Shown one piece after another: positions 7,916 through 29,385 of a stretch of DNA of 36,858 bases. The DNA comes from Desulfobacterales bacterium (GTDB taxonomy: Bacteria; Desulfobacterota; Desulfobacteria; Desulfobacterales; JARGFK01). A program made the position numbers and the translations under genes. Position 1 is the first letter of the stretch; every line of letters starts with the position of its first letter. The stretch covers positions 1-36,858 of the forward strand of contig JARGFK010000042.1 of the NCBI GenBank assembly GCA_029211065.1, given 5' to 3'. Under the pieces are notes generated by a model that was given only the letters and a program-made list of their open reading frames with translations, was not told the DNA's origin and did no database searches.

Positions 7916-7932
7916 GGCTTATTACCTTTTTC

Positions 7933-8247
7933 TTAAGGATTCTCATTCAGAACCGCTTCGACCCATCCCATCGCAGCGATCATGTTCGGAAAGCCGGTGG
8001 TCGTTAGCGATAATAAAACCGCATGGATGATTTCATCGTGTGTGGCGCCTGATGTCAATGCTTTTCTGGTATGCGACATGACAGCGCCCTTGGCATTTGC
8101 GCCAACGGCGATGCCGAGCTTGATCAGATCCTGGCTTTTCTGATCCAACGGTCCGGCCGACCGGCAGGTCTTTCCCAATTGCTGATAATCTTTTAAAATT
8201 TCAGGAAATTTGTTAGAAAAGTTTTCGAATGTTTTCGGTAAATACAT
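7933..8247 (-). CDS. Carboxymuconolactone decarboxylase (AhpD-fold) family protein
   Basis: 104 aa, the size of a single AhpD-fold unit. The conserved helix pair is visible as LIKLGIAVGANAKGAVMSHTRKAL and GATHDEIIHAVLLSLTTTGFP. The usual CxxC...H thiol pair of AhpD is replaced by Ala...Ser-His, so it cannot act as a classical thiol reductase and is closer to the non-thiol CMD branch. A strong ribosome binding site (AAGGAGGT) precedes the ATG. It is the first gene of the CMD-fmdE-moeA-like-rhodanese set, 130 bases after the respiratory operon's last gene. Its function here is unknown. Confidence 0.8.
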   Translation of the reverse strand: MYLPKTFENFSNKFPEILKDYQQLGKTCRSAGPLDQKSQDLIKLGIAVGANAKGAVMSHTRKALTSGATHDEIIHAVLLSLTTTGFPNMIAAMGWVEAVLNENP

Positions 8248-8377: not shown

Positions 8378-10489
8378 TCACTCCTTTTTCAAAGCCGAAC
8401 GCCAACCCAAAGGCAGTTTTTTAAAGCGTCCCCCAAATTCAATAGGATCGCCCTTGTAGCCAAGCTGCTCGAAATCGATATAGTTGGTACGATTAAGCCA
8501 ATCCTGGTTGTCGCCTTCATGGCGGTGAACAAGCTTAAAGTCGATGCCCTGAAAGGCGAGTTTCTTGAAATCCACCTCGCGCTTGTCTTGGTGACATCGC
8601 CCGCACGACCGCTCGGTCGTCAGGCTTGCATGGCACTGGACACAGGATAGAGCGAACTTTTTGGCCACAACCTCGTGGGTCAAGCCCAGATACATCCGGG
8701 TCTTTACCCATTTGTACTGGCCGCTATAGGAAAGCCCGGCAGCCTCCGTGCCATCCGCAAAAGCTTTTTGCCAGTCCAAGTCTTCCCAGTAGCCGCCGGG
8801 GCCAAACAGGTGCGGGACAAGCAGGTAATTGTTCACTGTGTCAGCCGCTTGTATACCGTCCATGACCTTAAATGGATAAATCCTTGATTTGGGATCGTTA
8901 ATATCACCTACAGGCTCGGTGAGTAACGTTACTCCCTTGGTGTTGATCTTGTCCCCCAGAATATGGCGCCTGACCTTGCCGTTGTACCAGGCGTAGGCGG
9001 GTTGTGCACTCTTCTCCCAGGTAATGTCACCATAGCGCCAATTGTAATCCGGTATACCGAACTTATTTTTCTTGACCCTGCGCTGTTTATCCCCGGCGGT
9101 GGACCAATCCCAGAAAGCCTTGGTGGGATTATGCATGGCATATACGGGATTGTGACAGGTCATGCAGGCCAGGTGTTCGGTATGGCGATTGAGATGATGG
9201 TTTAAAAATCCCCCGCCATTGTGCGGAGCGGCGGTATGACAATCCTCGCAGGATCGGCCCCCTTCGGCCACCGGCAGGGTGAGGCTGCGCCCGGTAATCT
9301 TGTGATTACGGGTCTTATGGCATTCATGACACTGGAAGCCGAGGCCGCCCATATGGACGTCACTGGTTGTGGAGTGAAAATCGAGAGAGGGATTGAGCCT
9401 GCCGTGCTTGACCGGATCTTCGCCGCCGCCTGAGAAGTGACACTCGCCGCAGGTCTTTCGGCTGGGCTTACCCACGTTATTGGCTACCTTTATAAGATCC
9501 ACGTTGGCAGCCGGCATACCGGCGCCTTGAGGATCTTTCTTATAAGTCCCCGTGGTGTCGTGGCATATAAGGCAGTCAATTCTGGTTTTGTCGTTGAAGT
9601 CAAAAGAAGCATCCCTCCAGCCGTAGCCGGCATGGCAGTTGGTGCAACGGGGCCAATTGCTGGCGACGTTTATACAGAAATTGTTGATGGTTTTGGTGGC
9701 TTTGCCAAGGTCAATTCGCTTTTCTTCACCCTCGGTGAATGCGGAAGGCCCTTTCCACAACCAGTGGGTACTGGTAAGCATCTCGTTAGCCTGAGCATCA
9801 TGGCAGCGGAGGCACTCCCTGGTCACCTTTGTGGGTTCGGGTTTCCCTGTGAGCTTGATCAACTCGCTGTGGGCCGGAACATTCTTGGCGTGGCAATCGG
9901 TGCAGCCTACTGGTCCCTTATTCCATTCCTTGTGACAGCCCATGCACTGCCGGTGATGAGCGCCCTTGAGTCCGATTCTCCCGGGCAACTCGGGGTTAAA
10001 AGCGGTCTGGTGACATGCGGAACACCGGGTAGCTTCCGGTGCCGCAGAATCCGCCGGTCGGTAATGATGACAGATAGTGCAATCGTTGAGAAGCGCTGCG
10101 TGTTTTTTGTGCATAAACCGAACGGTGCCATAGAGGTTTTCTTCCGCCTTAATGATCGGATTGTTCAGGAGGAAGTAGCTGAATTTTATCTCTTCGAGCT
10201 GCAGCGCTTTAACGCCAAGGCGGGCTCTCCGCTGGGAAAGGGTTTCCCTGAGCACTTCCTTGACGAGGGGAACCACCTCGTCAGATCGATGGACGGCCGC
10301 ACTTTGCCGAGCTTCCCAAGGGCGGGGTGCGGTGGGTGGAGCCACACGAGATGTGGTCGAGACGAAATCATCGATTCGGGTTCTGCTTTTGAATACAGTA
10401 ACGGCAAGGGTCAAATACAGTGCTGCCGCAACCAAAATCACTGTCGCCACTAAAAAACCTATCTTTCTTGGTGTCATCTTCAGGCTCAT
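8378..10489 (-). CDS. Membrane-anchored 13-heme cytochrome c with octaheme tetrathionate reductase-like part
   Basis: 703 aa with 13 CXXCH motifs. An uncleaved anchor (residues about 10-33) is followed by a spacer. A tetraheme block comes first (CTICH, CSACH, CMGCH, CTDCH), resembling class III cytochrome c. Nine more follow: CLRCH, CTNCH, CLICH, CGECH, CHECH, CEDCH, CMTCH, then, after about 200 residues, CVQCH and CGRCH. THWLWKGPSAF after the first of these is like octaheme tetrathionate reductase (OTR) proteins. The start at 10489 overlaps the nrfD-like stop (ATGA), with CAGGAGG ahead. It probably faces the periplasm and takes or gives electrons for the NrfD/Fe-S/cytochrome b membrane module, or is itself a terminal reductase. 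The fusion of a tetraheme module to an OTR-like part is inferred from motif spacing only. Confidence 0.85.
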   Translation of the reverse strand: MSLKMTPRKIGFLVATVILVAAALYLTLAVTVFKSRTRIDDFVSTTSRVAPPTAPRPWEARQSAAVHRSDEVVPLVKEVLRETLSQRRARLGVKALQLEEIKFSYFLLNNPIIKAEENLYGTVRFMHKKHAALLNDCTICHHYRPADSAAPEATRCSACHQTAFNPELPGRIGLKGAHHRQCMGCHKEWNKGPVGCTDCHAKNVPAHSELIKLTGKPEPTKVTRECLRCHDAQANEMLTSTHWLWKGPSAFTEGEEKRIDLGKATKTINNFCINVASNWPRCTNCHAGYGWRDASFDFNDKTRIDCLICHDTTGTYKKDPQGAGMPAANVDLIKVANNVGKPSRKTCGECHFSGGGEDPVKHGRLNPSLDFHSTTSDVHMGGLGFQCHECHKTRNHKITGRSLTLPVAEGGRSCEDCHTAAPHNGGGFLNHHLNRHTEHLACMTCHNPVYAMHNPTKAFWDWSTAGDKQRRVKKNKFGIPDYNWRYGDITWEKSAQPAYAWYNGKVRRHILGDKINTKGVTLLTEPVGDINDPKSRIYPFKVMDGIQAADTVNNYLLVPHLFGPGGYWEDLDWQKAFADGTEAAGLSYSGQYKWVKTRMYLGLTHEVVAKKFALSCVQCHASLTTERSCGRCHQDKREVDFKKLAFQGIDFKLVHRHEGDNQDWLNRTNYIDFEQLGYKGDPIEFGGRFKKLPLGWRSALKKE

Positions 10490-11697
10490 GGAATAACCTC
10501 CTGATCCTGAGGACTGAGCACCGGCAGGTAGGTGACACAAACTAGATAGATAAATATAAGGGCTGAAATAAATCCGGCCGTGATCGCCATTTCACCAATA
10601 GCGGGGAAATAGGACGTTTCAGCATATGGAGGCTGAAAGCCTACCAGAAAAACGTTTACCCGGTTTAGGGCAACCCCTACTATGATGAGGGTGCTGGCAA
10701 TGAAAAGAGTACGTCGGGAATGAAGTAAGCCCGGAGTCAGGAGCATAAACCAGGGGATGATAACCCCCACAAGCATCTCCACTATGAAAGCTTTACTCTG
10801 AACCGTTCCGTCAAGAAGGTAAACATAGGTCCCCCGGACCAACATGTCGCCTATCTTGATACCCATATAGATTCCCAAAAGAAAAATCGTGACTCGGCTA
10901 AGTGGAACCAAGATGTCCATCTCATCTTTCAGCCCCAGGGAGCTTGAGGCCAGGGTGGTTTCAAAAACCACCATGGGGTAGCCCACGGCAATGGCCGAAG
11001 TGAGAAAAAACAAAGGCAGGAGAGGGGTGTACCAAAGGGGATGCAGCTTTGTCGGGGCGATTAACATGAGGGATCCCAGTCCCGACTGGTGCATACAGGA
11101 GAGCACAACCCCGGCAATAATAAAAACCCACATAACCTTGTCCAGTATTCGATCCGCTAACCCCAGTAAACCTTCAAAAACACTATCAAGAATTGATAGT
11201 CGTCCCGGCAGGGAAATCATTCCTTTGAAGTGCTGCACTACAATCGGAATAAATTCAATATACAACACGTGCAGATAAATCATGACGCACATGGCCACTT
11301 CAAAGAGAACCGAGTCCTTCTGCCAGTAGACCGCCGGGTGCCAGATGGCCCAGGAGCGTCCAATATCGACGATAAGGCTCAATGAAACAAAGGTATAACC
11401 CAGCATGGCGGTCAAAAGAGCCGGCCTGGTTACCGCCTCATATTGACGCCGTCCGAAGATGTGTGCCAGGGCGGCGGTGGTAAATCCCCCAGCGGCCAGA
11501 GCTACGCCGGTGGCCACATCGATACCGATCCACAATCCCCAGGGATGCGTGTCATCCAGATTGGTCACAGCCGCCAGGCCACCGATATAGCGGGCGATTA
11601 AAAAAAGAACACCGGTTAGCATGAAGGCCACCATGACAAAGACTCCGGGCGTCCAGAACTTTTCCTCAATCGGTGCAGGTTTTGTATGTGCACTCAT
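10486..11697 (-). CDS. NrfD/HybB-type integral membrane quinone-interacting protein
   Basis: 403 aa, about ten membrane helices, the length of HybB/HmcC-type NrfD proteins. Recognisable segments are HPWGLWIGIDVATGVALAAG near residue 50, SLIVDIGRSWAIWHP and LGIYMGIKIGDMLVRG. These proteins exchange electrons between membrane quinone and a partner Fe-S protein. The start overlaps the upstream Fe-S gene by four bases, and the downstream 13-heme gene overlaps it by four, so the three proteins are tightly coupled. Together with cytochrome b and triheme c they form a membrane module like Hmc, Nhc or Dsr complexes, but no cytoplasmic CCG-domain subunit (HmcF/DsrK type) is present here. Confidence 0.9.
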   Translation of the reverse strand: MSAHTKPAPIEEKFWTPGVFVMVAFMLTGVLFLIARYIGGLAAVTNLDDTHPWGLWIGIDVATGVALAAGGFTTAALAHIFGRRQYEAVTRPALLTAMLGYTFVSLSLIVDIGRSWAIWHPAVYWQKDSVLFEVAMCVMIYLHVLYIEFIPIVVQHFKGMISLPGRLSILDSVFEGLLGLADRILDKVMWVFIIAGVVLSCMHQSGLGSLMLIAPTKLHPLWYTPLLPLFFLTSAIAVGYPMVVFETTLASSSLGLKDEMDILVPLSRVTIFLLGIYMGIKIGDMLVRGTYVYLLDGTVQSKAFIVEMLVGVIIPWFMLLTPGLLHSRRTLFIASTLIIVGVALNRVNVFLVGFQPPYAETSYFPAIGEMAITAGFISALIFIYLVCVTYLPVLSPQDQEVIP

Positions 11698-12629
11698 GAG
11701 TTGTCCTCCATTCTTTCAGGCTCCGGGTTCTCTTTGGTCTGTTTGCGGTTAAAGGTCCACATGCAGCCTCCCAGAATAGCGAACAGACTCAGTGGCGCCC
11801 ACAGATAGCTGAATAACCCCTGTTGGATGCTTTCGGCAAGATGGGGTATAGGACGGGACGGCAGATCCAGAAAACCCAGCTTTTCGAAAGGTTCTCCGGA
11901 AATGTAGAGCCAGGAAGTGCCACCCACTTCGTATTCCCCGTAAAGTCGATTCAGATAGCGGCCCGGATCATTCTTGATCCGCCGGCGGGCGATATCAATG
12001 ATCTGACTGCGCTTGCCGAAGGTAAGCGCCTCAACCGGGCAAATGGCGGCGCAGGCCGGTTTTCCTCCCTCCTTGCTGATCCGGTCATAGCAAAAACTAC
12101 ACTTTCGCACCTCCGGGGTGAGCGGATCATGATAGTCATAGGCGGGGATCTGAAAGGGGCAGGCCACCATACAGTAGCGGCAGCCCATACACTTGGAGAC
12201 GTCGTAGTGGACCGCACCGTTATCCTTTTTTGTCAAGGCCCCCACAATGCAGGCAGATACACAGGCCGGGTCCTGGCAGTGCATGCATTGAACCTTGACA
12301 AAGGTCGGTATCAACAGGTTTCGCTCGTCAAGTTTGCCCGTATAGTGGCGGTTTACCACGGTGTAGGCTGTGGCATTCGGCCTGCGTTTGTGCTCCAGAA
12401 CGCGCGGATCATCAAATGAAATCTGGGGAGCAGGCAGACCATTGACCCGATTGCAGGCTTGCTCGCATTTACGACAACCAACGCACGCGGTAAGGTCCAC
12501 CAGGCATCCGTAAGGGTCTGACGGGGCTTTGGGCTTACGGACGGCCCGGGCTTTTTTCGGCCCGACGGCCAGGGCTCCGCCCACCATGGTACCGGCTATC
12601 CCCAGAAAAAAACGTCTGTTGATATTCAT
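11694..12629 (-). CDS. HmcB/HybA-type Tat-exported Fe-S protein with C-terminal anchor
   Basis: 311 aa. A twin-arginine signal, NINRRFFLGIAGTMVGG, starts the protein. Four [4Fe-4S] motifs follow: CVGCRKCEQACN, CMHCQDPACVSAC, CMGCRYCMVACPF and CSFC...CAAICP. A hydrophobic segment near residues 275-297 (LWAPLSLFAILGGCMWTF) should hold the C-terminus in the membrane, as in HybA and HmcB. It passes electrons between the NrfD-like protein and periplasmic cytochromes. The ATG at 12629 is preferred over a GTG at 12641 because it sits at the Tat n-region and has GGGGA ahead. It overlaps the NrfD gene by four bases. Confidence 0.88.
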   Translation of the reverse strand: MNINRRFFLGIAGTMVGGALAVGPKKARAVRKPKAPSDPYGCLVDLTACVGCRKCEQACNRVNGLPAPQISFDDPRVLEHKRRPNATAYTVVNRHYTGKLDERNLLIPTFVKVQCMHCQDPACVSACIVGALTKKDNGAVHYDVSKCMGCRYCMVACPFQIPAYDYHDPLTPEVRKCSFCYDRISKEGGKPACAAICPVEALTFGKRSQIIDIARRRIKNDPGRYLNRLYGEYEVGGTSWLYISGEPFEKLGFLDLPSRPIPHLAESIQQGLFSYLWAPLSLFAILGGCMWTFNRKQTKENPEPERMEDNS

Positions 12630-12729
12630 CGCCGTCCCCACTTGATGGAAGGATAAAGTGCAATTGGTGTTACCATTGGATTGGCCGCCACAGAAGAACG
12701 ATTACATCGCTTATGGGATGACAGACAAA

Positions 12730-13548
12730 TCATTTCAGCAAACCGCTTGCATTGACGATGCCGTTGACCAAAAGATAGACACAACCGATAATCATGGAAA
12801 ACCCGAAAACATAATATGTGACGCGAAAAGCCACCGGTGCGCTTTTGACCAGATTACTCGCCAGGGTTCCCTGTTTTTCCAGACGCGCCACCCAAGCCGG
12901 TCGTTCATGGCTGACCTTTTCAAGATCAACGCTCCCCTCGAACATGACCAGATCCATCGGAAAGTTGTGTCGCCTGAGATGGCCGATAAAAAAATGTATG
13001 ATGAAGACATGGCCCATGGCCAGGATCGCTTCAATGCGGTGGATCCACAAGAGAACGTTAAGCACCCAACCGGGCATGTAACGGCTGGATGTCACAGGGC
13101 TGTACAGAATCAAGCCGGTTCCGCCAAGAATGCAGATGCCCCAAAAAACAGCCCAGTAGTCGAATTTTTCCCAATACGCCCAGCGGTCAAATCGTGGCGC
13201 TTCTTTCAACCCTAAAATCCAGCCGAGATGCTGAAGCACCTGTCCGATATCTTCCCATCTGGGAAGCAGAGAATCGGGACCATAAACGCTTTTGGGAAAC
13301 CCGCGCCAATCGATTTTGATAAAAACGTAAAATACGTGAACAAAAAACGCCGCCAACATAAAAATGCCGACCAACTTATGGACATTGAGCACTCCGGAAT
13401 AACCTCCGAAAAATGATGCCAGAAAATGTCCCCAATGAGTCTCACCGTACATCCGGCCCAGCCCTGTCGCTGATTGGACAGAGAAACTGAGCATCAGAAC
13501 GAGGTGGAATACGCGCTGAGTGGGAGTAAAACGCTTAATTCGTTTCAT
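12730..13548 (-). CDS. Di-heme cytochrome b membrane subunit
   Basis: 272 aa with about five hydrophobic helices. It opens with FTPTQRVFHLVLMLSFSVQS (H15), then LNVHKLVGIFMLAAFFVHVF (H57, H71) and later WIHRIEAILAMGHVFIIHFF, giving transmembrane histidines suited to two b hemes as in FdnI/PhsC-type cytochromes b. GGGAG lies eight bases ahead of the ATG. The first 14 bases overlap the triheme cytochrome gene, so the two are translationally coupled and probably form one quinol-oxidising unit. An 88-100 base gap separates it from the Fe-S gene downstream. Confidence 0.85.
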   Translation of the reverse strand: MKRIKRFTPTQRVFHLVLMLSFSVQSATGLGRMYGETHWGHFLASFFGGYSGVLNVHKLVGIFMLAAFFVHVFYVFIKIDWRGFPKSVYGPDSLLPRWEDIGQVLQHLGWILGLKEAPRFDRWAYWEKFDYWAVFWGICILGGTGLILYSPVTSSRYMPGWVLNVLLWIHRIEAILAMGHVFIIHFFIGHLRRHNFPMDLVMFEGSVDLEKVSHERPAWVARLEKQGTLASNLVKSAPVAFRVTYYVFGFSMIIGCVYLLVNGIVNASGLLK

Positions 13549-14230
13549 CCTTTTTTCTCCCTATAGATCGAAACTTCCTCAGGTTCCACCGGAAAGTGTC
13601 TGGCAACAATTCTCTTACCCCCCACATAAACGCATGTGGCAAAAAAGCGGCAAAGGTACCCACGGCAATGGCGACCATGGCCCAAAAGACGTAAAAGAGC
13701 AACGGGAAGGCCTTTTGGGTGCTCATGAGAGCCGGACTGGGTTCGTGGACCACATATTTGGCAAAGGAAGCGCTCGCTCCTTCATGGCATTTGGCACAAA
13801 TCTGGGCATACCGCCGCCGGGGGTTCATTGAGGAGTAATAGTGATTGATGCCCGCAATGGGTTCCGGACCATGACACTGGCGGCAGGTGATTTTTGCCCT
13901 AGCATTATGCAGGCTGCGGATCTGCCCGGGATGGCACTTGATGCAGGTGAGACGCTTGTAAAACCTGAGCCCCTGATGAGCGTCGGCCAGGTATTTTCGG
14001 CGGCGAACACGCTCTGCTATAGGAGACAGAGAAATCAATTCCTGGCGGGAGGTCGGCACTTCCACAAAGGGCAGGTTTGCTTGAGGTCTGGCTTCATACC
14101 CCTCATAGTATCGGGGACTCACCTTCTGCTCACGGTAGCGATAACTACGCGAGGTAACTTCTTTCTGTGACCAAACCAACCCGGGAAAAACGATCACAAG
14201 AACGGTGAGGGCAATCAAAAATTTGATCAT
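13535..14230 (-). CDS. Triheme cytochrome c with C-terminal membrane anchor
   Basis: 231 aa. A signal peptide (MIKFLIALTVLVIVFPGLVWS) is followed by an Arg/Tyr-rich stretch, three heme motifs (CIKCH, CRQCH, CAKCH) between residues about 95 and 150, and a C-terminal hydrophobic helix (LFYVFWAMVAIAVGTFAAFL) with a basic end. The start at 14230 is chosen over an in-frame ATG at 14377 because it places the signal peptide at the N-terminus and has GGAG five bases ahead. Position beside cytochrome b suggests it accepts electrons from the b hemes, as DsrJ or NrfH-like subunits do. The 193 bases before it, up to the octaheme gene, contain no separate gene that I can support. Confidence 0.82.
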   Translation of the reverse strand: MIKFLIALTVLVIVFPGLVWSQKEVTSRSYRYREQKVSPRYYEGYEARPQANLPFVEVPTSRQELISLSPIAERVRRRKYLADAHQGLRFYKRLTCIKCHPGQIRSLHNARAKITCRQCHGPEPIAGINHYYSSMNPRRRYAQICAKCHEGASASFAKYVVHEPSPALMSTQKAFPLLFYVFWAMVAIAVGTFAAFLPHAFMWGVRELLPDTFRWNLRKFRSIGRKKDETN

Positions 14231-14423
14231 CTCCACTCCAAATGCCCCGAGACATCGCTTGCCGGACGCCTCATCCTTCACGCTTTCCGATACTCTTTCT
14301 TGCGTCCTCATGGGTTTTTGGGTGCGAAAAAGCAAAGAGAGAACGTTCCTGCCAACCGGAAACTGCTTTGAAATCATGAAAAAGGCCTCATCTTCTTCGA
14401 AAAATTCAAATCTTTCAGAACTG

Positions 14424-15677
14424 CTAACGGACCTGATGAACCTGCAGCAGGCTCTTTTGGGCCATGCCGTCGAAGACTTTTTGCAAGGTCGCGAGATCCG
14501 TGTCTTTGTGCTTATGGCAGGTCTGACACGAGTTGGGAACGGCCGGGTTTTTCAAGGTGTCCTTTGGCAACAAGGTCACAAACGCGTGAGAGTGCGTATC
14601 CCCGGATTCGGCGCTTTTAGCAATTTTGGGCATGTGGCAACCAATGCAATTAGCAAACGAGTGGATGGAATGGGAAGCGTTATTATTAATCACTTTGTGG
14701 CACATCAGACATTGCTGAGAACCAGCCCCTTTGGTCTGGGATTGGGTCGGGGCCACACCCAGTTGATGAACGTAATGGCAGGACGTGCAGGTGACGCCTT
14801 CCCTGGAATGAGCGGACTGCTGCCAGTCGAGATATTGTTGATGGTGCCCTTTAGCAAACTCATTGGCGTAAAAGTTTTTAACATCCCCGGCGGCGAAAGA
14901 GGCGGATTTATAGTACAGCCCCAAGGCCCGGCCGGGCCGATAGTCAACCGGCCATTCGGTATCCGGCATCTTGATCGATTTGCCGCGATTGTGGCAGGAA
15001 CCACAGATCTGGGTTCTGAACCCCGCGGGAAGTTGGGACGGATTAACAATGGTCGAACGTTTATCGAAGACGGCCGTCTCCGGCAAGGCCACATGGTGGG
15101 AACCGGGACCGTGACAGGCCTCGCAGCCGACGCTCGTTTCGGAAAAGGTGTTCTTTTCAAGATCAACTCCCATGGCGTGACAACCGCCGCAATACTTGTT
15201 CCAGGGGCGCTTGTCCCAATCCTCCTCGTGATAACTGACCCAATGCTCTGTTTTGGCGTTGTACTGGATGGGAGCAACATACAGCGTTCCCTTTTTTTCG
15301 ACCAGAAAACTCTGCTTCCACTGTATGCCCATGGTATATTTTATCTCATCGATTTTGGGAATATAGATTTCATTCACCGGCAGCTTTAACTGCGCTTGAT
15401 GTGTCTGCAAATCTGCCCGGATGGTGGCTGGATTGATCTCTGCGATCAGAGCGTCCCGGTTTTTGGTCACATCCGCAAGGGTGCGACTATGGAGAGTCGT
15501 TCTCCACGAGTCGTAGTGCTCCAGATGGCAATACTTGCACTCTCCGGAACCGACATAGGCCTTTGGCTTGGACAAAACCTGTTCAATATCTATCTGGGTC
15601 TCACCGCCGCCGCAGCCAAAAAACTGGGCAAGCAAAAAGGCCGATAACGCAAGTTTGATCAATCCACTTATTTTCAT
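14424..15677 (-). CDS. Octaheme cytochrome c, cytochrome c554 family, probable lipoprotein
   Basis: 417 aa. The N-terminus MKISGLIKLALSAFLLAQFFGC ends in Gly-Cys, so lipidation is likely. Eight heme motifs follow: CKYCH, CGGCH, CEACH, CGSCH, CTSCH, CLMCH, CIGCH and CQTCH. The opening YVGSGECKYCHLEHYDSW is typical of the cytochrome c554/c' family (PF13435 type), which includes electron carriers and relatives of hydroxylamine oxidoreductase. No tyrosine cross-link or CXXCK motif is visible, so I cannot say whether it is catalytic. The ribosome binding site is GGGGAGGAG, six bases ahead. It probably links the molybdoenzyme half of the operon to the membrane half. Confidence 0.85.
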   Translation of the reverse strand: MKISGLIKLALSAFLLAQFFGCGGGETQIDIEQVLSKPKAYVGSGECKYCHLEHYDSWRTTLHSRTLADVTKNRDALIAEINPATIRADLQTHQAQLKLPVNEIYIPKIDEIKYTMGIQWKQSFLVEKKGTLYVAPIQYNAKTEHWVSYHEEDWDKRPWNKYCGGCHAMGVDLEKNTFSETSVGCEACHGPGSHHVALPETAVFDKRSTIVNPSQLPAGFRTQICGSCHNRGKSIKMPDTEWPVDYRPGRALGLYYKSASFAAGDVKNFYANEFAKGHHQQYLDWQQSAHSREGVTCTSCHYVHQLGVAPTQSQTKGAGSQQCLMCHKVINNNASHSIHSFANCIGCHMPKIAKSAESGDTHSHAFVTLLPKDTLKNPAVPNSCQTCHKHKDTDLATLQKVFDGMAQKSLLQVHQVR

Positions 15678-15757
15678 CTTCTCTCCTCCCCTGCAACAGG
15701 AACACATAACGTTTCAGTGAGTTGCTACGAGCCGACCGGCCCGTTTCAATCGTACTA

Positions 15758-16063
15758 TCAGGCATCCCATCCATCATCATCATCATCACCTTCTTCTTTG
15801 TTTTGTGGTACTTTTTTATCTTTCTCGACAGGTACTTTTTTGTTTTCCTTAACAGCTTCTTTTTCGTCTTCCTTTACTGCGTCACTTCTTTTTTCAGCGG
15901 CAGATTGCGTATAGATAAGAACAGGCGTCTCCACAGACAACGCTTTCAGCACTGTTTCGGCAAATGCTTGTCGTTGAATATTTAACGGTGGCACCAGAAA
16001 TTGTAAACAGATAAGGCCCCCGGTTAGAATAACAACCACAAGGGCCCTTTTATTTAGGCACAT
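15758..16063 (-). CDS. Small exported protein with charged, acidic tail (unknown)
   Basis: 101 aa, no family recognised. A hydrophobic N-terminal segment (RALVVVILTGGLICLQFLV) looks like a signal or anchor. The second half is almost only Lys, Glu, Val and Asp and ends GDDDDDGWDA. The start at 16063 is chosen because it follows the TorD-like stop by five bases and has AAAGGA just ahead; an upstream in-frame start at 16099 would lie inside torD. Its place between the chaperone and the octaheme cytochrome suggests a small partner or assembly protein of the periplasmic enzyme. The tail could dock on Lys-rich cytochromes or bind a cation. Function is unknown. Confidence 0.6.
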   Translation of the reverse strand: MCLNKRALVVVILTGGLICLQFLVPPLNIQRQAFAETVLKALSVETPVLIYTQSAAEKRSDAVKEDEKEAVKENKKVPVEKDKKVPQNKEEGDDDDDGWDA

Positions 16064-16068
16064 TTCCT

Positions 16069-16719
16069 TTAACTGTCCTCCTTTATTATTTCTTTGCACT
16101 CAAATTCTATGAATTTTTGAGCCAACTCCGCTACCCCCTTATAAAAATGTGATTCCGTGTCTTGCATGACCTTTTTACAAAAAGCGGGGACCCAGCGAGA
16201 AAGGTGCTCCTCAATAAACTTTCTTTCAATTTGCAAACAATATAGAGCCTTCTCTTTATCTTGATCTTGCCACGCTTTAGCTTCGCTGAGCGCAACCTGT
16301 TGCATAAATTCAAGTTCCACGCTGATATGATCGGGAAGTCCTTTGTATTCGGACTTGTAGTCGAATCCCGCGGATTCGATAAATTTCTTGGCATCTACCG
16401 TTGACTGTCCCCAAAGCTTTCCCCACTGCCCGTCTTCTCGCTCGTGATGAATGGATTCATGGGGTGAAATGTGCTTGCCGGGCCCTAAAAACAACCGGGT
16501 AAATTCGACGGCCAACTCCTCGATCAGATCTTCGTCGGGTTTTTCAAAAAAATCACCTTTAAACTCAATACCCAGCCCAGACAAGACCCCCAAAAATCGG
16601 GGGTCTTTTATCTGATGCAGGAGGTCTGACGATATTTCCTGACCAAAGACCGTGGCCAAAAGTCCATAGACATTTCCTCTGTTATCGGCCACATCTCTGT
16701 TTTCATGTACTTTCGTCAT
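16069..16719 (-). CDS. TorD/DmsD-family molybdoenzyme assembly chaperone
   Basis: 216 aa, all-helical in appearance. The family signature is present as FTRLFLGPGKHISPHESIHH (near residue 73), and the helix LPDHISVELEFMQQVALSEAKAW is also typical. TorD-like proteins bind the Tat signal of their molybdoenzyme and hold it for cofactor insertion before export. The gene directly follows the catalytic subunit, 23 bases after its stop, with GGAGGG eight bases ahead of the ATG, so its client is almost certainly that enzyme. Confidence 0.88.
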   Translation of the reverse strand: MTKVHENRDVADNRGNVYGLLATVFGQEISSDLLHQIKDPRFLGVLSGLGIEFKGDFFEKPDEDLIEELAVEFTRLFLGPGKHISPHESIHHEREDGQWGKLWGQSTVDAKKFIESAGFDYKSEYKGLPDHISVELEFMQQVALSEAKAWQDQDKEKALYCLQIERKFIEEHLSRWVPAFCKKVMQDTESHFYKGVAELAQKFIEFECKEIIKEDS

Positions 16720-16742
16720 CTAACGCTCCCTCCTGTTTTGGC

Positions 16743-19271
16743 TTAGGCCTTGGTGACCGTAACCACCGTACTTTGATTGGCCCACTGGCCGCTGACCGGA
16801 TCCGGTTGTTTCTTAATAACCCAGTTCGGATGTACGCCGTACGTCGTCCAGGGTTTAAGCGCAAGATCTGGATCGTTGTCGCCCGCCAGCGGCGCCTTGT
16901 TACCGGACGCGTAACGGCCATACTCCCAATGACCCAAATGGTGAGAGATGGCAATGATACCGGGAACCACGTCTTCGTTTACGTCGGCCTTGATCGTAAT
17001 TTCACCGACATCCGACTTGACCTTGATCTTGTCCCCATTCTTGATCCCCAGACGTTTGGCCGTTTTTGAATTAATCTTGGCCGGATTGTCATGAAAGATC
17101 TCCGTCAGCCACTTGCAGTTGGCCGAACGGGAATGGATCTGGACCGGCACCTTGTAGCTCGTTAAAATAAGCTCATTGGGGGCCAGATTCTGATGGTCGG
17201 ACATCGGCGTGTAAGTCGGCAGGGGGGGGAATTTTTTTAGCTTCAGGAGTTCGGAATACAGCTCAAAATACCCGGATTTGTTTACCCTGTCAGGATTAAA
17301 GCCCTTATATACCTTGTCGCCAAACTGCTGGCCGACATAGCCTTTAACGGCATTCTTGGTAAGGGTGTACCCTTTTTTCTTGGCCTCGGCCTCACTCTTG
17401 GCTTTGGATTTTTTCCAGTTCCAGTAAACACCGGTGGCCTCATCAAAGATGACCCCCTCTGCTTTGAGATGTTTGTCGCCTCTTTTGTATTTATACATGT
17501 AATAATCCGGTTTTATGTTGGGATCATGCCAGACGCCGTGTTTCATCATGTAATCAAACCCGCCGGCTTCTTTTACGCCCGGTGTTTTTTCGCACGATTT
17601 TTTGACAAATTCTTCCATCGAATTAAAACCCAGTGGAAATCCCATCCGGTTGGCCAGATCACACACAACATCGCCCATCATGCGGCTCTCACCCATCGGT
17701 TTGACCAGCGGTTGCCGGATGTAATACTCAGCAACCTGGGTCGCGGAAACCATATTTTCCCAGTCCATCCATTCCAGATAGGACGGATGGGGCAGGAGAA
17801 GGTCCGCCAACGCGGCCGATTCGTCATAATAGGCATTGACATTAACGGTAAACGGAATCAACGTTTCATCTTTTAAGATGTCAATGCTTTCCTGGCACTC
17901 CCCGTTGGCATATACCGGGGTGTAGCAGAACCACATATAAATTTCAGGGCGGCCGGCTTTGCCGTCCTTGATCATCTTGAGGACCTGATGATCGACCCCA
18001 TGGGTCGGGTACGCAACTTGGCCTTTAAATCCTTTGCCGATACCAAGATCTTTGGTTTTGGGCGCCTTGGGAAATTTTGGATATTTCCATGAAGCGCTTA
18101 CAGCCCGGCAGCGGCCACCGGGGTTGTCGATGTTGCCGGTAATGGCTGCCAGCATCTGCACCGCCCGCTCGGTATCGGTCCCGTTAAGATGGGCCACGGC
18201 TCCCCGGTAGCTGATGACGCAGGCCGGTTTGGCTTTGGCAAACTCAAGCGCAATGGACTTGATTTTGGCCGCCGGTACCCCGCTGATCTTTTCGGCGAAT
18301 TCGGGCGTATATTGGGCCAGGTGCGCCTTCAAGGCGCTTACCTTTTCATCCGTGCTGGCCTTGTAATCCTCAGTAGCCTTAATGTACTGAAAGAAATCTT
18401 TATCATAAAGGCCCGCTTCCATGATTTCGCGGCACATGGCAAGAACCACCACACCGTCAGTGCCCGGCGTTATCGGCACCCACTCGGTTGATCGCGCCGC
18501 CGTGTTGGAAAGCCTGACATCAAAAGTAACCATCTTGACATCCCGATCCACCATGGCGTCAACCAGCCGCTGCCATGTTGGGATGGAATTGGTACCCGCC
18601 TCCATCACACCGCTGCCAAAATTAAGAACATATTTGGTATTTTCAAAATCCCAGTTATCGTAATGCTTGCCCCAGGTAAGCTCCTGTCCTACCCACTTGC
18701 CTGTTTCACAGATGGCAGTATGACCGGAGATGGTTTTGGTGCCGAAAGAACCGAGAAAGCCTTTAACTATTTTTTCGGAAGACCCTTTCATGCGGCCATA
18801 GTGAAACGCCAACTTTTCCGGATGGCCCTCATCACGCAGTTTTTTCATGCGCGCCGCCAAATCGGTCAGGGCGTCGTCCCAACTGATGCGCTTCCACTTG
18901 CCTTCCCCACGCTTTCCTGCCCGTTTCATGGGATACAGAATTCGGTCCGGATCATAGAGCTGGTTGATCCCCGCGGCGCCTTTGGCGCATATCTTTCCTC
19001 TTCCCCGGATGGAATCAGGGTGTCCTTCCAGCTTGACCAGCCTGCCGTCCTCCACAAAACCGATCATGGAATCTCTGGTCACGCACGACCAGCAGGCCGT
19101 TGGAATCATTTTTCGTTCCACACCGGTCTCGGGTGAAAAATCTTTTCCCCCTTTAATAAATTTTACTGTCCCGGCCAGGGCCTGCGAGCGCATTACTTTT
19201 CCGGTTGCCAAGACCGCGGCACTTGCCACGCCAAGCCGGATAAGGTCACGGCGATTAATGTCTTTATTCAT
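16743..19271 (-). CDS. Tat-exported molybdopterin oxidoreductase (PsrA/ArrA-like clade), catalytic subunit
   Basis: 842 aa. A Tat signal (NRRDLIRLGVASAAVLATG) is followed by the N-terminal cluster site, which reads C60-x2-C63-x3-D67...C95: the third cysteine normal for this family is Asp. The expected molybdenum ligand is C188 in ISGHTAICETGKW, as in polysulfide, thiosulfate and arsenate reductases. Later blocks are LNFGSGVMEAGTN, RGAVAHLNGTD, ITGNIDNPGGR and a C-terminal molydop-binding domain (LILTSYKVPVQIHSRSANCK). Length is close to ArrA (about 850) and shorter than TtrA. AAGGAGGAG precedes the ATG. It lies in the operon between the Fe-S subunit and its chaperone. Substrate unknown: a sulfur or arsenic oxyanion, or polysulfide, are all possible. 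Confidence 0.88.
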   Translation of the reverse strand: MNKDINRRDLIRLGVASAAVLATGKVMRSQALAGTVKFIKGGKDFSPETGVERKMIPTACWSCVTRDSMIGFVEDGRLVKLEGHPDSIRGRGKICAKGAAGINQLYDPDRILYPMKRAGKRGEGKWKRISWDDALTDLAARMKKLRDEGHPEKLAFHYGRMKGSSEKIVKGFLGSFGTKTISGHTAICETGKWVGQELTWGKHYDNWDFENTKYVLNFGSGVMEAGTNSIPTWQRLVDAMVDRDVKMVTFDVRLSNTAARSTEWVPITPGTDGVVVLAMCREIMEAGLYDKDFFQYIKATEDYKASTDEKVSALKAHLAQYTPEFAEKISGVPAAKIKSIALEFAKAKPACVISYRGAVAHLNGTDTERAVQMLAAITGNIDNPGGRCRAVSASWKYPKFPKAPKTKDLGIGKGFKGQVAYPTHGVDHQVLKMIKDGKAGRPEIYMWFCYTPVYANGECQESIDILKDETLIPFTVNVNAYYDESAALADLLLPHPSYLEWMDWENMVSATQVAEYYIRQPLVKPMGESRMMGDVVCDLANRMGFPLGFNSMEEFVKKSCEKTPGVKEAGGFDYMMKHGVWHDPNIKPDYYMYKYKRGDKHLKAEGVIFDEATGVYWNWKKSKAKSEAEAKKKGYTLTKNAVKGYVGQQFGDKVYKGFNPDRVNKSGYFELYSELLKLKKFPPLPTYTPMSDHQNLAPNELILTSYKVPVQIHSRSANCKWLTEIFHDNPAKINSKTAKRLGIKNGDKIKVKSDVGEITIKADVNEDVVPGIIAISHHLGHWEYGRYASGNKAPLAGDNDPDLALKPWTTYGVHPNWVIKKQPDPVSGQWANQSTVVTVTKA

Positions 19272-19296
19272 TTTCTCCTCCTTCTTTTATATGCTT

Positions 19297-20151
19297 TTAT
19301 ATAATACGGTCTTGATAGGCTTCATTTTTTTCATATTTTTTCCTGGCCGCAGCCATTTTTTGAAGCGCCCCATCCGGGTCGATGTAAAAGTTCATGGGTC
19401 TTGTCTTTTCTCCCGGGAGCAGGGTTGTTTTGTTTTGTTTATCCAGAAAACCGAATTCTTTGTTCAATTTTGAAACATCGCTGGCCGGATCATTCAAGTC
19501 TCCGAATATTCTCGCTCCTGCGGGACAAATATTGACACAGGCCGGAGCCACCCCCTTTTCAATGCGATGGTTGCAGGACGAACATTTGACGATGGCGAAC
19601 TTGGTGGAGTCCTTGCCGGCCTTAAGGCGTTTGTTAAAGGCCCGGGCGCCGTAAGGACACGCCTCGATGCATTTGCCGCAGCCGGTACAATACTGATTAT
19701 CGAAAAGGATAAGTCCGTCCGGGCGCTTATAGGTGGCCCCGCCGCGATACCGGATGGTTTTACCGTCAGAAGTTTTAAATGTGCGTCGATCCTTGGGGTA
19801 TTCCGGGCAGGCCTTAACGCAGGGTGGAATTTTGTCTTCCTCGTTTCCCTCGCAGTGATTACACCGCGTCGGCAAAAAGAGCTTTTCGGTGCTGGGGAAT
19901 TTGCCGTGAATTTCCTCAATGACAGCCGTCCGGAAAGCACCCAGGGGAACATCGAACTCGGCCTTGCAGGCAACGGTACATGCCCGACAGCCGTTGCACC
20001 GCCTGAGATCCATGACCATCGCCCACCGCGGTGCCTCTTTTTCGGCCGCGAACGCAATACCGTCCGGGACCAGACTGGTCGCCCCGGTAAGGGTCAGCGC
20101 GCCCGCTCCCTTTAGAACCTGACGACGTGTAAGCGTAACTTTTTCACTCAT
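19297..20151 (-). CDS. PsrB/TtrB-like four-cluster Fe-S electron-transfer subunit
   Basis: 284 aa. A Tat signal (TRRQVLKGAGALTLTGA) is followed by four cysteine groups: CNGCRACTVACK, CNHC...CVKACP, CTGCGKCIEACP and CSSC...CVNICP, giving four [4Fe-4S] clusters. The order and spacing are those of the beta subunits of polysulfide, thiosulfate and tetrathionate reductases. It should form a soluble or cytochrome-docked dimer with the molybdoenzyme, whose gene starts 25 bases after it. No NrfD gene lies beside this pair; the nearest NrfD is five genes further on with its own Fe-S partner. Electrons therefore probably reach it through the multiheme cytochromes. Confidence 0.88.
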   Translation of the reverse strand: MSEKVTLTRRQVLKGAGALTLTGATSLVPDGIAFAAEKEAPRWAMVMDLRRCNGCRACTVACKAEFDVPLGAFRTAVIEEIHGKFPSTEKLFLPTRCNHCEGNEEDKIPPCVKACPEYPKDRRTFKTSDGKTIRYRGGATYKRPDGLILFDNQYCTGCGKCIEACPYGARAFNKRLKAGKDSTKFAIVKCSSCNHRIEKGVAPACVNICPAGARIFGDLNDPASDVSKLNKEFGFLDKQNKTTLLPGEKTRPMNFYIDPDGALQKMAAARKKYEKNEAYQDRII

Positions 20152-20235
20152 AACAACCTCCTTTAGTTTAATTGTTCACCTTTTCTAAAATACAGGCATT
20201 TAGATCCATAGTGTCCCCTTAACTTTCGTTACGAA

Positions 20236-21807
20236 TTATTTACCTTCTTCGGTATAAGCGATCATATCATCGAAAAAGCCTATGGCCGCATCAATAAGCA
20301 TAATGGAATACTTCTTGTTATGAACACCGTTGCCGTGTTGGACAATGTCTATAATATCAAGGCCTTGCTTAAGTATCTGGTTTGCCTTGGCCAGTTTGTC
20401 ATTCGTAAGCCTGGACTTATACTTGGCAAGTGTTTCCAGCGCCTCCTGCTCGATCTCCCTGGCTTCCTTGATGTTTTTGACAAGCTCTGTCTTCCACTCC
20501 TTGAGCATTTTTTCGTGATCCTTGGTGTGACATTTGACGCAGGTCTTGCCCGATGCGGTCATGACTTTGGCGCCTTTTTCAGTGTGCTTCCGCTCCACGT
20601 GGCAACCCAGACAGTTGGTTCCCACTTTATACATGAAATCCGGTGTCTTCAAGACACCCTCGATCTTTGGACCGGAAACCAAAAGCCGCTGCAAGCGATG
20701 GGGACTAAAATGACAGGCCTCGCAACTGATGCGCTCGGGCTGGCTATCTAGGGGCCGTTCTAAATTGGCCTTTGTGTGCATGATCGGCCGGTGGCATTCA
20801 AAACAGCGGGCGTTTTTAGTCGTCACGTGCTTTTCATGCATCAGCTTTTTGTTCTTCACTTCTTTCAGCGCTTTGGCCTGGTCATGACAAGCGAGACAGG
20901 CTTCATTTTTTATCCGTCCAGCGCCCAAAACCAGCGTAGTTTTAAGCTCTCCTTTCTCAAAAAAGGCCTCGTACCTGCCCCCGCCTGAGGCCTGTATCAT
21001 CTCAATGTGGCAGCTTGAGCAGGAAACATTGGCTTTTTTTAGCATCTCATGGGTAATCGGCTTCTCCCCGGAAGTCTGGATGGGCTTTTCAGGTAGTGCG
21101 TGGCAAAGTTCACATCGGCCCCGACCTTCGTTAAATTTGACGTTGGTGAAATGACACTGATGACAGGCGGCCTGACTCACCTCAAACTTTTTCTGATCGG
21201 TTTCATGCTGATGACAGGAAGTGCAATTGATTGCCTGACCTTCAATCTGGTTCTTTTTTTCCAGGTGGGGCTTGTGGACAAAGCTGACTTTATCGGTAAA
21301 CTTTATCTTCTTGGTCTTGAACTCATCCTTGGGGTTGCCGTGGCAATTGGCCGTCATGCAGCTGGCATCGACGACCCGGGGCCGGGTCCTGACAACCTCG
21401 CCGCCAAGCTGCAAATAGGAAAAATGGGCCGGCGGTTCTTTAATGAGATCTTTAATTGGAATGTGTTTAATTTTTGATTCATTGCCTGCTGTCGGCGTCA
21501 CCCCCAGCCTACCGGCTTTACCGGGTGGGTAATGGCACTCCACACACCCGTATTTATTATGTTTGCCTTTCTTCCAGAGTTCATAGCCTTTATTGACAAT
21601 CCCCGGGTAAGTTAAGACGTGGCAGTAACCACAAAAAAATTGCGGCTGAGGAAGATCAGGGGCGGGAAGTTCGGTTAAGGATTTAGCCGCTTGATCCATT
21701 GCAAACACTGAACCGCTGAGTGCCAGGTTTACCACTACGAGCATAACAATGGAAATGAACCATGTCCGCCAACTACACTTCTTTTGGTACATGTACTTCA
21801 GCCTCAT
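20236..21807 (-). CDS. 12-heme cytochrome c with NapC-like entry and helical tail
   Basis: 523 aa. An N-terminal hydrophobic segment (TWFISIVMLVVVNLALSGSV) serves as signal or anchor. Eleven CXXCH motifs are present, the first pair (CGYCH, CVECH) in a NapC/NirT-like setting. One CX4CH motif, CMTANCH (residues 150-156), is of the kind seen in class III cytochromes c3. The last 90 residues are heme-free and helical, with the NGVHNKKYS motif common in large multiheme cytochromes. Two starts are possible: 21807 (AGGAG eleven bases ahead) and 21792 (GAGG nine bases ahead). The start overlaps the receiver gene. It may be the redox partner joining the membrane to the Fe-S/molybdoenzyme pair. Confidence 0.85.
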   Translation of the reverse strand: MRLKYMYQKKCSWRTWFISIVMLVVVNLALSGSVFAMDQAAKSLTELPAPDLPQPQFFCGYCHVLTYPGIVNKGYELWKKGKHNKYGCVECHYPPGKAGRLGVTPTAGNESKIKHIPIKDLIKEPPAHFSYLQLGGEVVRTRPRVVDASCMTANCHGNPKDEFKTKKIKFTDKVSFVHKPHLEKKNQIEGQAINCTSCHQHETDQKKFEVSQAACHQCHFTNVKFNEGRGRCELCHALPEKPIQTSGEKPITHEMLKKANVSCSSCHIEMIQASGGGRYEAFFEKGELKTTLVLGAGRIKNEACLACHDQAKALKEVKNKKLMHEKHVTTKNARCFECHRPIMHTKANLERPLDSQPERISCEACHFSPHRLQRLLVSGPKIEGVLKTPDFMYKVGTNCLGCHVERKHTEKGAKVMTASGKTCVKCHTKDHEKMLKEWKTELVKNIKEAREIEQEALETLAKYKSRLTNDKLAKANQILKQGLDIIDIVQHGNGVHNKKYSIMLIDAAIGFFDDMIAYTEEGK

Positions 21808-22177
21808 CTTCGTAAATACTCCTTAGCCAATATATAAGTTCGTCCATATCAACCGGCTTATTAATACACGCGTAAATGTGGTAACAGATAGCTTCCTTTA
21901 ACTCCGGATGAAATCGTTCCGACGACATGCAGAGAAAATATACCTCGGGGTATTTTTTGGTAAGGTCCCGAATCGTCCGGTTGTCCAGAGAGACGGTATC
22001 AAGGTCAATGATGACCACCAGACAGCTTTTTTTCTGGAGCAAAGAGTTCAGGTCCGATAACAAATAGACCGGAACCGTTTGATAGTCCCGGCCTTCCAAC
22101 AGATTGCATAAGGCCAAACATTGACTTTGATCATTGTCGAACACGACTGTTTTTTTTGTCAGACTGAGAGCCGTCAA
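21773..22177 (-). CDS. Receiver-only response-regulator-like protein
   Basis: 134 aa, a single REC-like fold without an output domain. The acidic pair is D14/D16 in VVFDNDQ. A phosphorylation-site candidate is D58 or D60 in VVIIDLDTVSLD, with S85 in LCMSSE and the conserved Lys-Pro pair in INKPVD (K107). TTG is the likely start, with AAGGATT about seven bases before it; no ATG fits. It is the first gene after the sigma-54 promoter and overlaps the 12-heme gene by 35 bases. No histidine kinase is seen in the window. It may tune the operon or act in protein-protein signalling. Confidence 0.7.
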   Translation of the reverse strand: MTALSLTKKTVVFDNDQSQCLALCNLLEGRDYQTVPVYLLSDLNSLLQKKSCLVVIIDLDTVSLDNRTIRDLTKKYPEVYFLCMSSERFHPELKEAICYHIYACINKPVDMDELIYWLRSIYEDEAEVHVPKEV

Positions 22178-22341: not shown

Positions 22342-22357
22342 AGCAAATTGAATGCCA
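22342..22357 (-). promoter_or_regulatory. Sigma-54 (-24/-12) promoter of the respiratory operon
   Basis: On the minus strand the sequence is TGGCATTCAATTTGCT, matching TGGCAYNNNNNTTGCW with the GG and GC elements at the correct spacing. Transcription would begin near 22331 and reach the receiver gene start at 22177. The activator gene for such a promoter lies immediately upstream. Confidence 0.8.
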
Positions 22358-29357: not shown

Positions 29358-29385
29358 ATTTTCCCTCCTTGTCAGCGATATTTAT

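Follow-up and report, generated by a model that had tools for sequence, protein, structure and literature searches.

The arsenate reductase ArrA is marked by the motif (R/K)GRY and ArxA by XGRGWG (PMC6549141, accessible portion), and arsenic respiration is surveyed through such known genes; in the available text of a cold-seep survey (PMC10060404), arrA, arxA and aioA were counted by sequence and all of the AioA, ArxA and ArrA recovered clustered with known ones. A further described system, the Nhc complex, consists of a nine-heme cytochrome, a four-cluster Fe-S protein, an NrfD protein and NhcD (PMC8076601, consulted in part).

We examined a window of 36,858 nucleotides, the whole stretch of DNA analysed here, from an uncultured sulfate-reducer-type bacterium. 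Twelve ORFs, all on the minus strand and separated by short gaps or overlapping, occupy positions 8378-22177 (ORF list and translations; Table 1). Counting motifs in each ORF bore out the first-pass annotation of 36 c-type heme motifs in four cytochromes (12 + 8 + 3 + 13): there are 13 CXXCH in H, three in L, eight in M, and 11 plus one CX4CH in R, the Cys, Cys and His of the latter forming invariant columns of a 25-row alignment in which two rows have CX3CH at this site. The other proposed components were also recovered, with NrfD (PF03916), cytochrome b561-type (PF01292), TorD-type (PF02613) and molybdopterin domains passing Pfam cut-offs, and with the two ferredoxin-like subunits (16 and 18 Cys) matching four-cluster families at scores below curated values. 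Control genes adjoin this span at 22342-25988, and same-strand genes run on beyond 8378 to about 4844, with a probable role in cofactor supply; homologues of MoeA-like and FmdE genes were each found in 11 of 54 loci related to P. A generic scan of the window for sigma-70 promoters and terminators gave no decisive signal.

Table 1. Features of the window, with the cassettes (A, B and C) to which genes are assigned
Feature	Position	Strand	Basis
CMD, FmdE, MoeA-like, rhodanese, MobB-like	4844..8247	-	CMD, FmdE, rhodanese by Pfam; MoeA and MobB names from reading of ORF translations
H: 13-heme cytochrome, c3-type domain + octaheme tetrathionate-reductase-like domain, cassette C	8378..10540	-	TIGR04315, 1sp3
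I: NrfD-type membrane subunit, cassette C	10486..11697	-	PF03916
J: HmcB/HybA-like four-cluster Fe-S protein, cassette C	11694..12641	-	NF045715 339 bits, cut-off 420
K: cytochrome b561/FdhI-like, cassette B	12730..13548	-	PF01292, other genomes
L: 3-heme cytochrome, hydrophobic C-terminal part, cassette B	13535..14377	-	heme motifs, other genomes
M: 8-heme cytochrome, cassette B	14424..15707	-	heme motifs, profile, other genomes
N: small protein, signal-like start + acidic tail	15758..16099	-	no family match
O: TorD-type chaperone, cassette A	16069..16719	-	PF02613
P: molybdopterin catalytic subunit, twin-arginine-type leader, separate clade, cassette A	16743..19271	-	profiles, Pfam, tree, model
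Q: four-cluster Fe-S subunit, twin-arginine-type leader, cassette A	19297..20151	-	Cys count, profile + Pfam matches
R: 12-heme cytochrome c, cassette A	20236..21807	-	heme motifs, alignment
S: receiver-domain-like protein	21773..22177	-	PF00072 26.9 bits, below cut-off 30.2
Sigma-54 (-24/-12) promoter-like site TGGCATtcaatTTGCT	22342..22357	-	164 nt upstream of S; pattern + conservation
Membrane sigma-54 activator: sCache, HAMP, AAA+, Fis HTH	22784..24997	-	Pfam
Putative ArrX/AioX-family periplasmic arsenic-oxyanion sensor, PhnD-like lipoprotein	24978..25988	-	PDB matches, pocket residues
Arsenic-resistance block	28272..36509	-	profiles, Pfam
Acr3	28272-29357	-	467 bits, cut-off 283
DUF2703	30357-30740	-	DUF2703 Pfam match
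ArsP_1 permease	32563-33348	-	PF03773
ArsC-type	33880-34326	-	141 bits, below cut-off 174
SaoE-like permease	34860-36065	-	105 bits, below cut-off 325
ArsR/SmtB	36111-36509	-	subfamily profile over cut-off

Relatives of the catalytic subunit P were found in 54 public loci, with homologues of R in 26, Q in 48 and O in 45. The recurrence of R, Q, P and O together indicates that this core is not a chance grouping and, as first proposed, no NrfD of its own kind lies beside the P-Q pair. Profile scores, motifs and tree exclude P from ArrA, ArxA and PhsA. P reaches 219.6 bits on the ArrA profile NF041714 (curated score 1600, passed in none of 297 genomes, whose 14 full-length ArrA-type matches score 1016-1334) and 322.2 bits on the PhsA profile NF012032, its best-scoring NCBIfam profile (curated score 694), while Q scores 141.8 bits on the ArrB profile NF041715 (cut-off 450). 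In place of the RGRY found in all 15 ArrA rows (L081-L095), P has HYGRMK, and it lacks the ArxA motif present in L106 and L096. A tree of 24 chosen family rows, L059 and the window against 52 other rows, with no named AnrA among them, puts P outside the ArrA and ArxA clades, P and ArrA being in separate starred clades; alignment A1 held 41 of 45 loci, with L007, L011, L023 and L031 left out by choice. The predicted structure of P (mean pLDDT 85.6) has ArrA and PsrA (2vpw) as tied nearest folds (Z 32.1 each), so the fold does not choose its substrate. For R the mean pLDDT was 48.8; shorter relatives of this cytochrome begin like the quinol-oxidising NapC/NrfH. The P-family was recognised in no title or abstract of the literature searched, a search with most subscription journals outside it. 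The family may appear in a PNAS paper from 2019, reportedly on arsenic in oxygen-deficient zones.

The first-pass annotation, confined to 8378-22177, missed the ArrX-type sensor, which is the clue to substrate, together with the sigma-54 control and the arsenic-resistance genes. Among PDB entries, this lipoprotein matches ArrX (6x6b) best at 200 bits, followed by AioX (163), PtxB (63) and PhnD (46), in contrast to the ArxX of Cereibacter ORIO, which scores higher with AioX (288 bits) than with ArrX (115 bits). Six of the seven arsenic-pocket residues named in the accessible part of PMC5908839 are identical (Y88, C106, Y131, S161, H192 and D210), with S163 replaced by T. The pocket Cys is kept in 13/13 sensors examined from P-family loci (from 15 loci with a PhnD-type match, L014 and L058 being left out), and is Gly in two PhnD-like proteins from the same search. 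A loop, LTPVFL, common to AioX (6esv) and ORIO ArxX, is absent from the window sensor, its relatives and ArrX; the AioX chain 8ed5 also lacks it. In the sensor tree, where several forks are open, ArrX has a long branch and lies beyond the group of the window. Beyond Desulfobacterota-type loci, a sensor of the ArrX/AioX family was examined in one locus only (L053), and none was seen near alphaproteobacterial P-family members, many of whose contigs end early. These comparisons point to a putative ArrX-type sensor of an arsenic oxyanion.

The sigma-54 pattern occurred 17 times across the whole window at up to two mismatches against 20.5 expected, which is no excess over chance, so that the site upstream of S counts solely for where it lies and for being conserved. 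S has homologues in 14 of the 54 loci. With at most one mismatch, the site was present in 11 of 15 loci having S, against 0.4% of base shuffles, these 15 including close relatives (L008/L048 and L010/L011/L047); at up to two mismatches it was found upstream in none of the 10 scannable loci without S (L013 and L016, in which R starts off the contig, were excluded). Linkage to arsenic resistance was assessed in 45 genomes covering 50 of the 54 loci (L013, L025, L038 and L049, all short, were left out). Acr3 lay on the contig of the P relative in 7 of 33 genomes with one Acr3 match, where 0.43 were expected (probability about 1e-7 with genomes taken as independent, or 0.008 when no more than three independent events are counted), and on another contig in the other 26; 12 of the 45 genomes had no match at 1e-60. 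An ArrA-type match above 1000 bits was present in one of 46 genomes.

We therefore read the cluster, with a probability of about 0.58, as a putative sigma-54-controlled periplasmic system for respiration of an arsenic oxyanion, in which arsenate is most likely reduced. This reading is favoured because the sensor is nearest ArrX, with its pocket kept and the loop missing, and because the sigma-54 site is conserved and Acr3 linkage exceeds expectation; the single ArrA-type match above 1000 bits among 46 genomes, the place of ArrA among the nearest folds and the portability of cassettes B and C count on the same side. It is weakened because P falls below the ArrA profile, scores best on PhsA and has neither RGRY nor GRGWG; because Acr3 is mostly on another contig or not matched; because outside Desulfobacterota-type loci a sensor of this kind was examined in a single locus and none was seen near alphaproteobacterial members, and ArrX lies outside the sensor group of the window; because the sigma-54 site is absent from the 10 scannable loci without S; and because the ligands given in the accessible part of PMC5908839 do not include antimonate. 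To judge from sequence, P probably adds another lineage to the respiratory arsenic enzymes, as an arsenate reductase fed via cytochromes instead of an NrfD of its own. Arsenate would bind the lipoprotein, and the bound sensor would signal via the membrane activator, which would fire the -24/-12 site. P and Q, whose family is assigned above and whose substrate we infer, would form a catalytic pair without its own NrfD anchor and with R as the likely electron inlet. Cassettes B and C may act as two separate quinol-oxidising cassettes feeding periplasmic cytochromes, with a likely quinone site in K, and cassette C may itself be a reductase. The nearby Acr3 would pump out arsenite entering the cell.

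The same layout could serve an AnrA-like antimonate reductase, reducing Sb(V) with export of Sb(III) by Acr3, a fitting role since Acr3 also moves Sb(III). A respiratory Sb(V) reductase of the DMSO-reductase family, AnrA, has been reported (PMC13284237 and PMC11521347, available portions). We consider this unlikely: the ArsC-type genes and ArrX-type sensor point to arsenate before antimonate. Somewhat less probable again is the opposite direction, with an arsenite oxidase delivering the electrons of As(III) to the cytochromes. ArxA, which oxidises arsenite and is a near relative of ArrA (PMC6549141, accessible portion), shows that closely related enzymes can run in different directions, and a related Azoarcus KH32C enzyme (39% identity) adjoins an AioX/ArxX-type sensor, ArsA and Acr3. 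Against this, the window sensor is nearer ArrX than AioX, and the host genome has DsrA, which would leave an acceptor for arsenite electrons not evident.

Just as improbable as arsenite oxidation is a sulfur-oxyanion or polysulfide reductase with arsenic genes as chance neighbours. PhsA is the best, though sub-cut-off, profile for P, and both cassette C and the rhodaneses are suggestive of sulfur chemistry: H scores 489 bits on the octaheme tetrathionate-reductase family TIGR04315 (curated score 375), its residues 237-639 align with 1sp3 at 420 bits with the lysine of VKHG kept, and a second copy of cassette C in the same genome, where NrfD and cytochrome share a single reading frame, adjoins a PhsA-like enzyme. 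A sulfur role leaves the arsenic-type upstream sensor and the recurrent Acr3 linkage unexplained.

From comparative gene content, the cluster is three joined cassettes, and not the one new complex first suggested. Cassette B (8-heme, 3-heme and b-type cytochromes) stands alone in four other genomes read and cassette C in six of nine, with tblastn locating all three of its genes in L178, L180 and L182; on this distribution we show that both are portable. A single 12-subunit complex, for all the close spacing of the genes and the promoter-like site in front, is rejected as highly improbable, since B and C stand alone elsewhere and J (50% identity) and I (45%) occur in none of the 54 loci. The proposed grouping of NrfD, Fe-S protein, cytochrome b and triheme protein as one module also fails, as the latter two travel with the 8-heme protein, although the NrfD module does lack a CCG subunit. 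The claim that the gene set matches no known complex holds for the whole, the complete 12-gene set being absent from every other locus examined, and not for the NrfD module, which by its composition is similar to the known Nhc complex (PMC8076601, accessible text). Cassette C has the Nhc/Hmc-type make-up of multiheme c3-type cytochrome, four-cluster Fe-S protein and NrfD in one unit, at scores below the curated values for HmcB (339/420 bits), HmcC (281/550) and the nine-heme cytochrome (40/640).

We see an even chance that the respiratory arsenic enzymes include a further lineage, unrecognised so far and distinct from both ArrA and ArxA, that extends across uncultured Desulfobacterota, Nitrospirota and Alphaproteobacteria, that in one branch has a 12-heme cytochrome in place of the NrfD quinone anchor of other members, and that couples to exchangeable quinol-oxidising cassettes. 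Although P falls short of the ArrA profile and shows neither motif, it is accompanied by an arsenate-type sensor, and its kind recurs among MAGs from several phyla; arsenic cycling may thus be undercounted where these organisms live. If true, surveys built on known genes would be missing a route of arsenic respiration, and the enzyme would be an example of respiratory wiring that changes by entire electron-transfer cassettes.

Among described systems, Nhc (nine-heme) and Mcc (octaheme sulfite reductase) share with cassette C a multiheme cytochrome, a four-cluster Fe-S protein and NrfD (PMC8076601, in part), whereas cassette C has 13 hemes, one protein combining a c3-type domain with an octaheme domain of tetrathionate-reductase-like kind, and a second copy with the shared NrfD-cytochrome frame described above; octaheme tetrathionate reductase 1sp3 (aligned chain of 443 residues) matches only the octaheme part of H. 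PhsA and PsrA supply the nearest named profile and a tied nearest fold, but P is below the curated score, has no NrfD partner and lies in an arsenic context. The Azoarcus sp. KH32C plasmid cluster (L080) resembles the locus in its Mo subunit, TorD, PhnD-like sensor and adjoining ArsA and Acr3, and differs in its order (Fe-S, NrfD, Mo, TorD), its own NrfD and the AioX/ArxX-type sensor loop; no multiheme cytochrome is annotated in its 20-kb stretch. ArxAB of the Cereibacter azotoformans ORIO plasmid (L106/L205, named ArxA by the GRGWG motif) shares superfamily, Fe-S partner, chaperone, PhnD-like sensor and ars genes, whereas P lacks GRGWG and belongs to another clade, and the ORIO sensor is nearer AioX. 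ArrAB(C) with ArrXSR is alike in its Mo and four-cluster Fe-S pair, twin-arginine-type leader, ArrX-type sensor and nearby ars genes. Against the ArrA rows P shows 25-29% identity, and it lacks RGRY and forms part of a separate clade; where ArrABC has the NrfD protein ArrC, the P-Q pair has a 12-heme cytochrome, and the place of the ArrXSR kinase and regulator is taken by a membrane sigma-54 activator.

The respiratory cluster probably acts on arsenic or antimony oxyanions, and we put arsenate reduction by the system at a probability of about 0.58. Arsenate would then be the substrate, cassettes B and C would be quinol-oxidising feeders, the cytochrome R would be the electron inlet and electrons would flow in the reducing direction. 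The ORFs, in transcription order S, R, Q, P, O, N, M, L, K, J, I and H, include cassette A (R, the four-cluster Fe-S subunit Q, the molybdopterin catalytic subunit P and the chaperone O), cassette B (cytochromes M and L, and K) and cassette C (Fe-S protein J, I and cytochrome H). Pfam searches confirmed the molybdopterin domains, TorD-type chaperone (O), NrfD (I), cytochrome b561 type (K) and ferredoxin domains, and the 36 heme motifs counted in the first-pass annotation were recovered, with 12 in R (one a CX4CH site that is kept among its relatives), 8 in M, 3 in L and 13 in H. The host genome (4.94 Mb, 269 contigs) encodes a DsrA above the curated cut-off, like sulfate reducers.

Coordinates of features in the window and in loci from other contigs
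Sequence	Coordinates	Strand	Feature
Window	8378-22177	minus	filled by 12 ORFs
Window	16743-19271	minus	P, molybdopterin catalytic subunit
Window	15758-16099		small protein, C-terminal GDDDDDGWDA, no Pfam family; sole counterpart weak, in L047
Window	24978-25988		sensor gene, beyond the span of the first-pass annotation
L121 (same genome)	7469-10750		second cassette C copy; NrfD and 13-heme cytochrome frame of 1094 codons, adjoining a PhsA-like enzyme and a rhodanese-type ORF
L194	5790-10125		cassette B, then an ORF reading like an outer-membrane porin
L112	3915-14582		one cluster holding an ArxA-motif enzyme (GRGWG), another enzyme from the wider clade, and cytochromes with 4 and 5 hemes

P scored below the curated score of all 25 NCBIfam models listed (322 of 694 for PhsA and 220 of 1600 for ArrA). 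Scanning of named genome contigs turned up 54 loci in which a relative of P has 59-91% identity over its best segment; 49 are MAGs, and of the remaining five, one is an Olavius-associated bin and four are BMS3 bins. The taxa named are Desulfobacterota-type groups, Nitrospirae, Nitrospinia, Omnitrophota and (mostly alphaproteobacterial) Pseudomonadota. In a sample of 395 genomes from the phylum of the window, the single close match beyond its own genome was locus L059 (55% across almost the full length), and the remaining matches at E 1e-85 had 37-43% identity. In a 78-row tree the window grouped with 24 family rows and L059 in a clade of 26 (SH-aLRT 100), separate from 15 ArrA and two ArxA rows. 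Of 42 aligned rows of this family, 39 carry HYGRMK, two HYGRAK and one HYGRME; the family also has, with variants, the signature stretches HTSICEGGKW and WGKHYDN. R160, H184 and C188 of P align with the arginine, histidine and cysteine that serve arsenate binding in the corresponding stretch of ArrA, and an AlphaFold2 model of P (pLDDT 85.6) matched PsrA and ArrA equally (Z 32.1). Residues 60-67 of P read CWSCVTRD, with Asp at the third cysteine position of the N-terminal Fe-S motif; Asp occupies this position in 19 of the 42 rows, window included, and Cys in the other 23, and an Asp-ligated cluster in P is possible.

The main reason for favouring arsenate is the sensor, which belongs to the AioX/ArrX/ArxX family and among solved structures matched ArrX best (200 bits; AioX 163, PtxB 63, PhnD 46). 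As described in the excerpted text of PMC5908839, such sensors bind the cognate enzyme's substrate at physiological concentrations, and the AioX pocket residues Tyr88, Cys106, Tyr131, Ser161, Ser163, His192 and Asp210 are conserved in ArrX and ArxX, with PhnD lacking Cys106. Six of these are kept in the window sensor and Thr replaces Ser163. Each of the 13 family-locus sensors examined keeps Cys106, with Asp210 replaced by Glu in that of L053; in two PhnD-like proteins encoded at ArrA loci, the Cys106 and Asp210 positions hold Gly and Lys. The same excerpt gives ArrX a shorter loop, without Val56 and Phe57 (PMC5908839). AioX (6esv), ORIO ArxX and an Azoarcus sensor have LTPVFL there; the window sensor and its relatives lack it and align to ArrX. 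The window group (11 rows, support 96) also stood apart from AioX, ORIO ArxX and Azoarcus (96) in a sensor tree, in which a long branch leads to ArrX and the deeper branching order is not settled; the tree alone therefore does not make the window sensor an ArrX.

The gene adjoining that of the sensor encodes a sigma-54 activator, for which the Pfam search listed sCache, HAMP, AAA+ and Fis domains and no kinase domain, and a promoter-like -24/-12 site lies 164 nt upstream of S. Across 15 loci with S, window included, the site was perfect in two, with one mismatch in nine and two in four; 0.4% of base-shuffled copies had a site with at most one mismatch, and none of 10 scannable loci without S had one at up to two.

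Arsenic genes are linked to the enzyme. In the window, Acr3 scored 467 bits against a cut-off of 283 and is encoded 9 kb from P, accompanied by ArsR/SmtB, an ArsP_1 permease, and ArsC-type and SaoE-like proteins below cut-offs. Related loci held Acr3 above the cut-off in L005, L026 and L034, a partial copy marginally below it in L007 and ArsA above its cut-off in L023; the ArsC-type and permease proteins scored from L020, L034 and L053 stayed below cut-offs. Among 45 genomes, 33 had one Acr3 match at 1e-60 (30 above the cut-off) and 12 none, and in seven of the 33 it was on the enzyme's contig (identity judged from equal length), ~4 to 19 kb off, versus 0.43 expected. The plain P of 1e-7 is too strong, because the seven comprise four Desulfobacterota-type genomes, two BMS3 bins and one Rhodospirillales; for three or more, P is 0.008. 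An ArrA-type match above 1000 bits occurred in one of 46 genomes (G446), and three others had matches at 338-451 bits. Separately, on Azoarcus sp. KH32C plasmid pAZKH (L080) a related molybdoenzyme (39%), perhaps an arsenite-side relative, is encoded together with an NrfD of its own, ArsA, Acr3 and a sensor of the AioX/ArxX type.

The cassettes are mobile. Homologues of Q, O and R occur in 48, 45 and 26 of the 54 loci, many of which end at contig ends, and R was found in no alphaproteobacterial locus among them. In the alphaproteobacterial loci read, P and O come directly after an Fe-S gene and, in most cases, a gene of NrfD size; a group of clustered NrfD-size proteins spans 30 loci, and in the Azoarcus KH32C relative the genes run Fe-S, NrfD, Mo, TorD. 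R thus occupies the place of NrfD in other members. In L017, L020 and L022, R has an N-terminal hydrophobic stretch and FCGxxCHxMDKP, a start that we take, from its likeness to NapC/NrfH sequences, to be quinol-oxidising. Downstream of TorD, most Desulfobacterota-type loci have another module, made up of a second 8-heme protein, an Fe-S protein and, in several of these loci, an NrfD, which are ~36% identical to M, ~33% to J and ~23% to I, respectively; in place of this module the window has J-I-H.

For cassette B, M was found at at least 50% identity in 12 of the 54 loci, L in 10 and K at at least 40% in nine. M matched at E 1e-70 in six of 247 sampled genomes, the window's own included; M, L and K were adjacent in all four read of the five others, and none of these others was among the P-matching genomes of the 395-genome search. 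The porin-like ORF behind cassette B in L194 hints at extracellular electron transfer; this locus also has a molybdoenzyme ORF distantly related to P (23%).

At thresholds of 50% identity for J and 45% for I, neither was present in any of the 54 loci, and one locus (L024) had a distant H-like ORF (36%). H-like matches at 1e-80 occurred in 49 of 297 sampled genomes, mostly to the octaheme part alone; gene context was read in nine of these 49 and for the second copy in the window's genome. Six of the nine (L177-L182) have J, I and H consecutively without a P-like match, five with a sigma-54 gene nearby. In L183-L185 and L121, I and H share one frame (1080-1106 codons), which argues that they act together, close to a P-like molybdoenzyme ORF (25.8-29.9% to P; that of L121 scores 536 of 694 on PhsA). 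H combines a c3-type part with an octaheme domain that matches 1sp3 (420 bits) and keeps the VKHG lysine (chain position 153), which serves as a heme ligand; judged from this likeness, cassette C may itself be a reductase, beyond a mere feeder.

In the portions of the literature searched, we found no description of the enzyme clade or its wiring. The parts of the system are of already known kinds. Nhc, as set out in the excerpted text of PMC8076601, has the same make-up as cassette C, so an NrfD module without a CCG subunit is not in itself novel.
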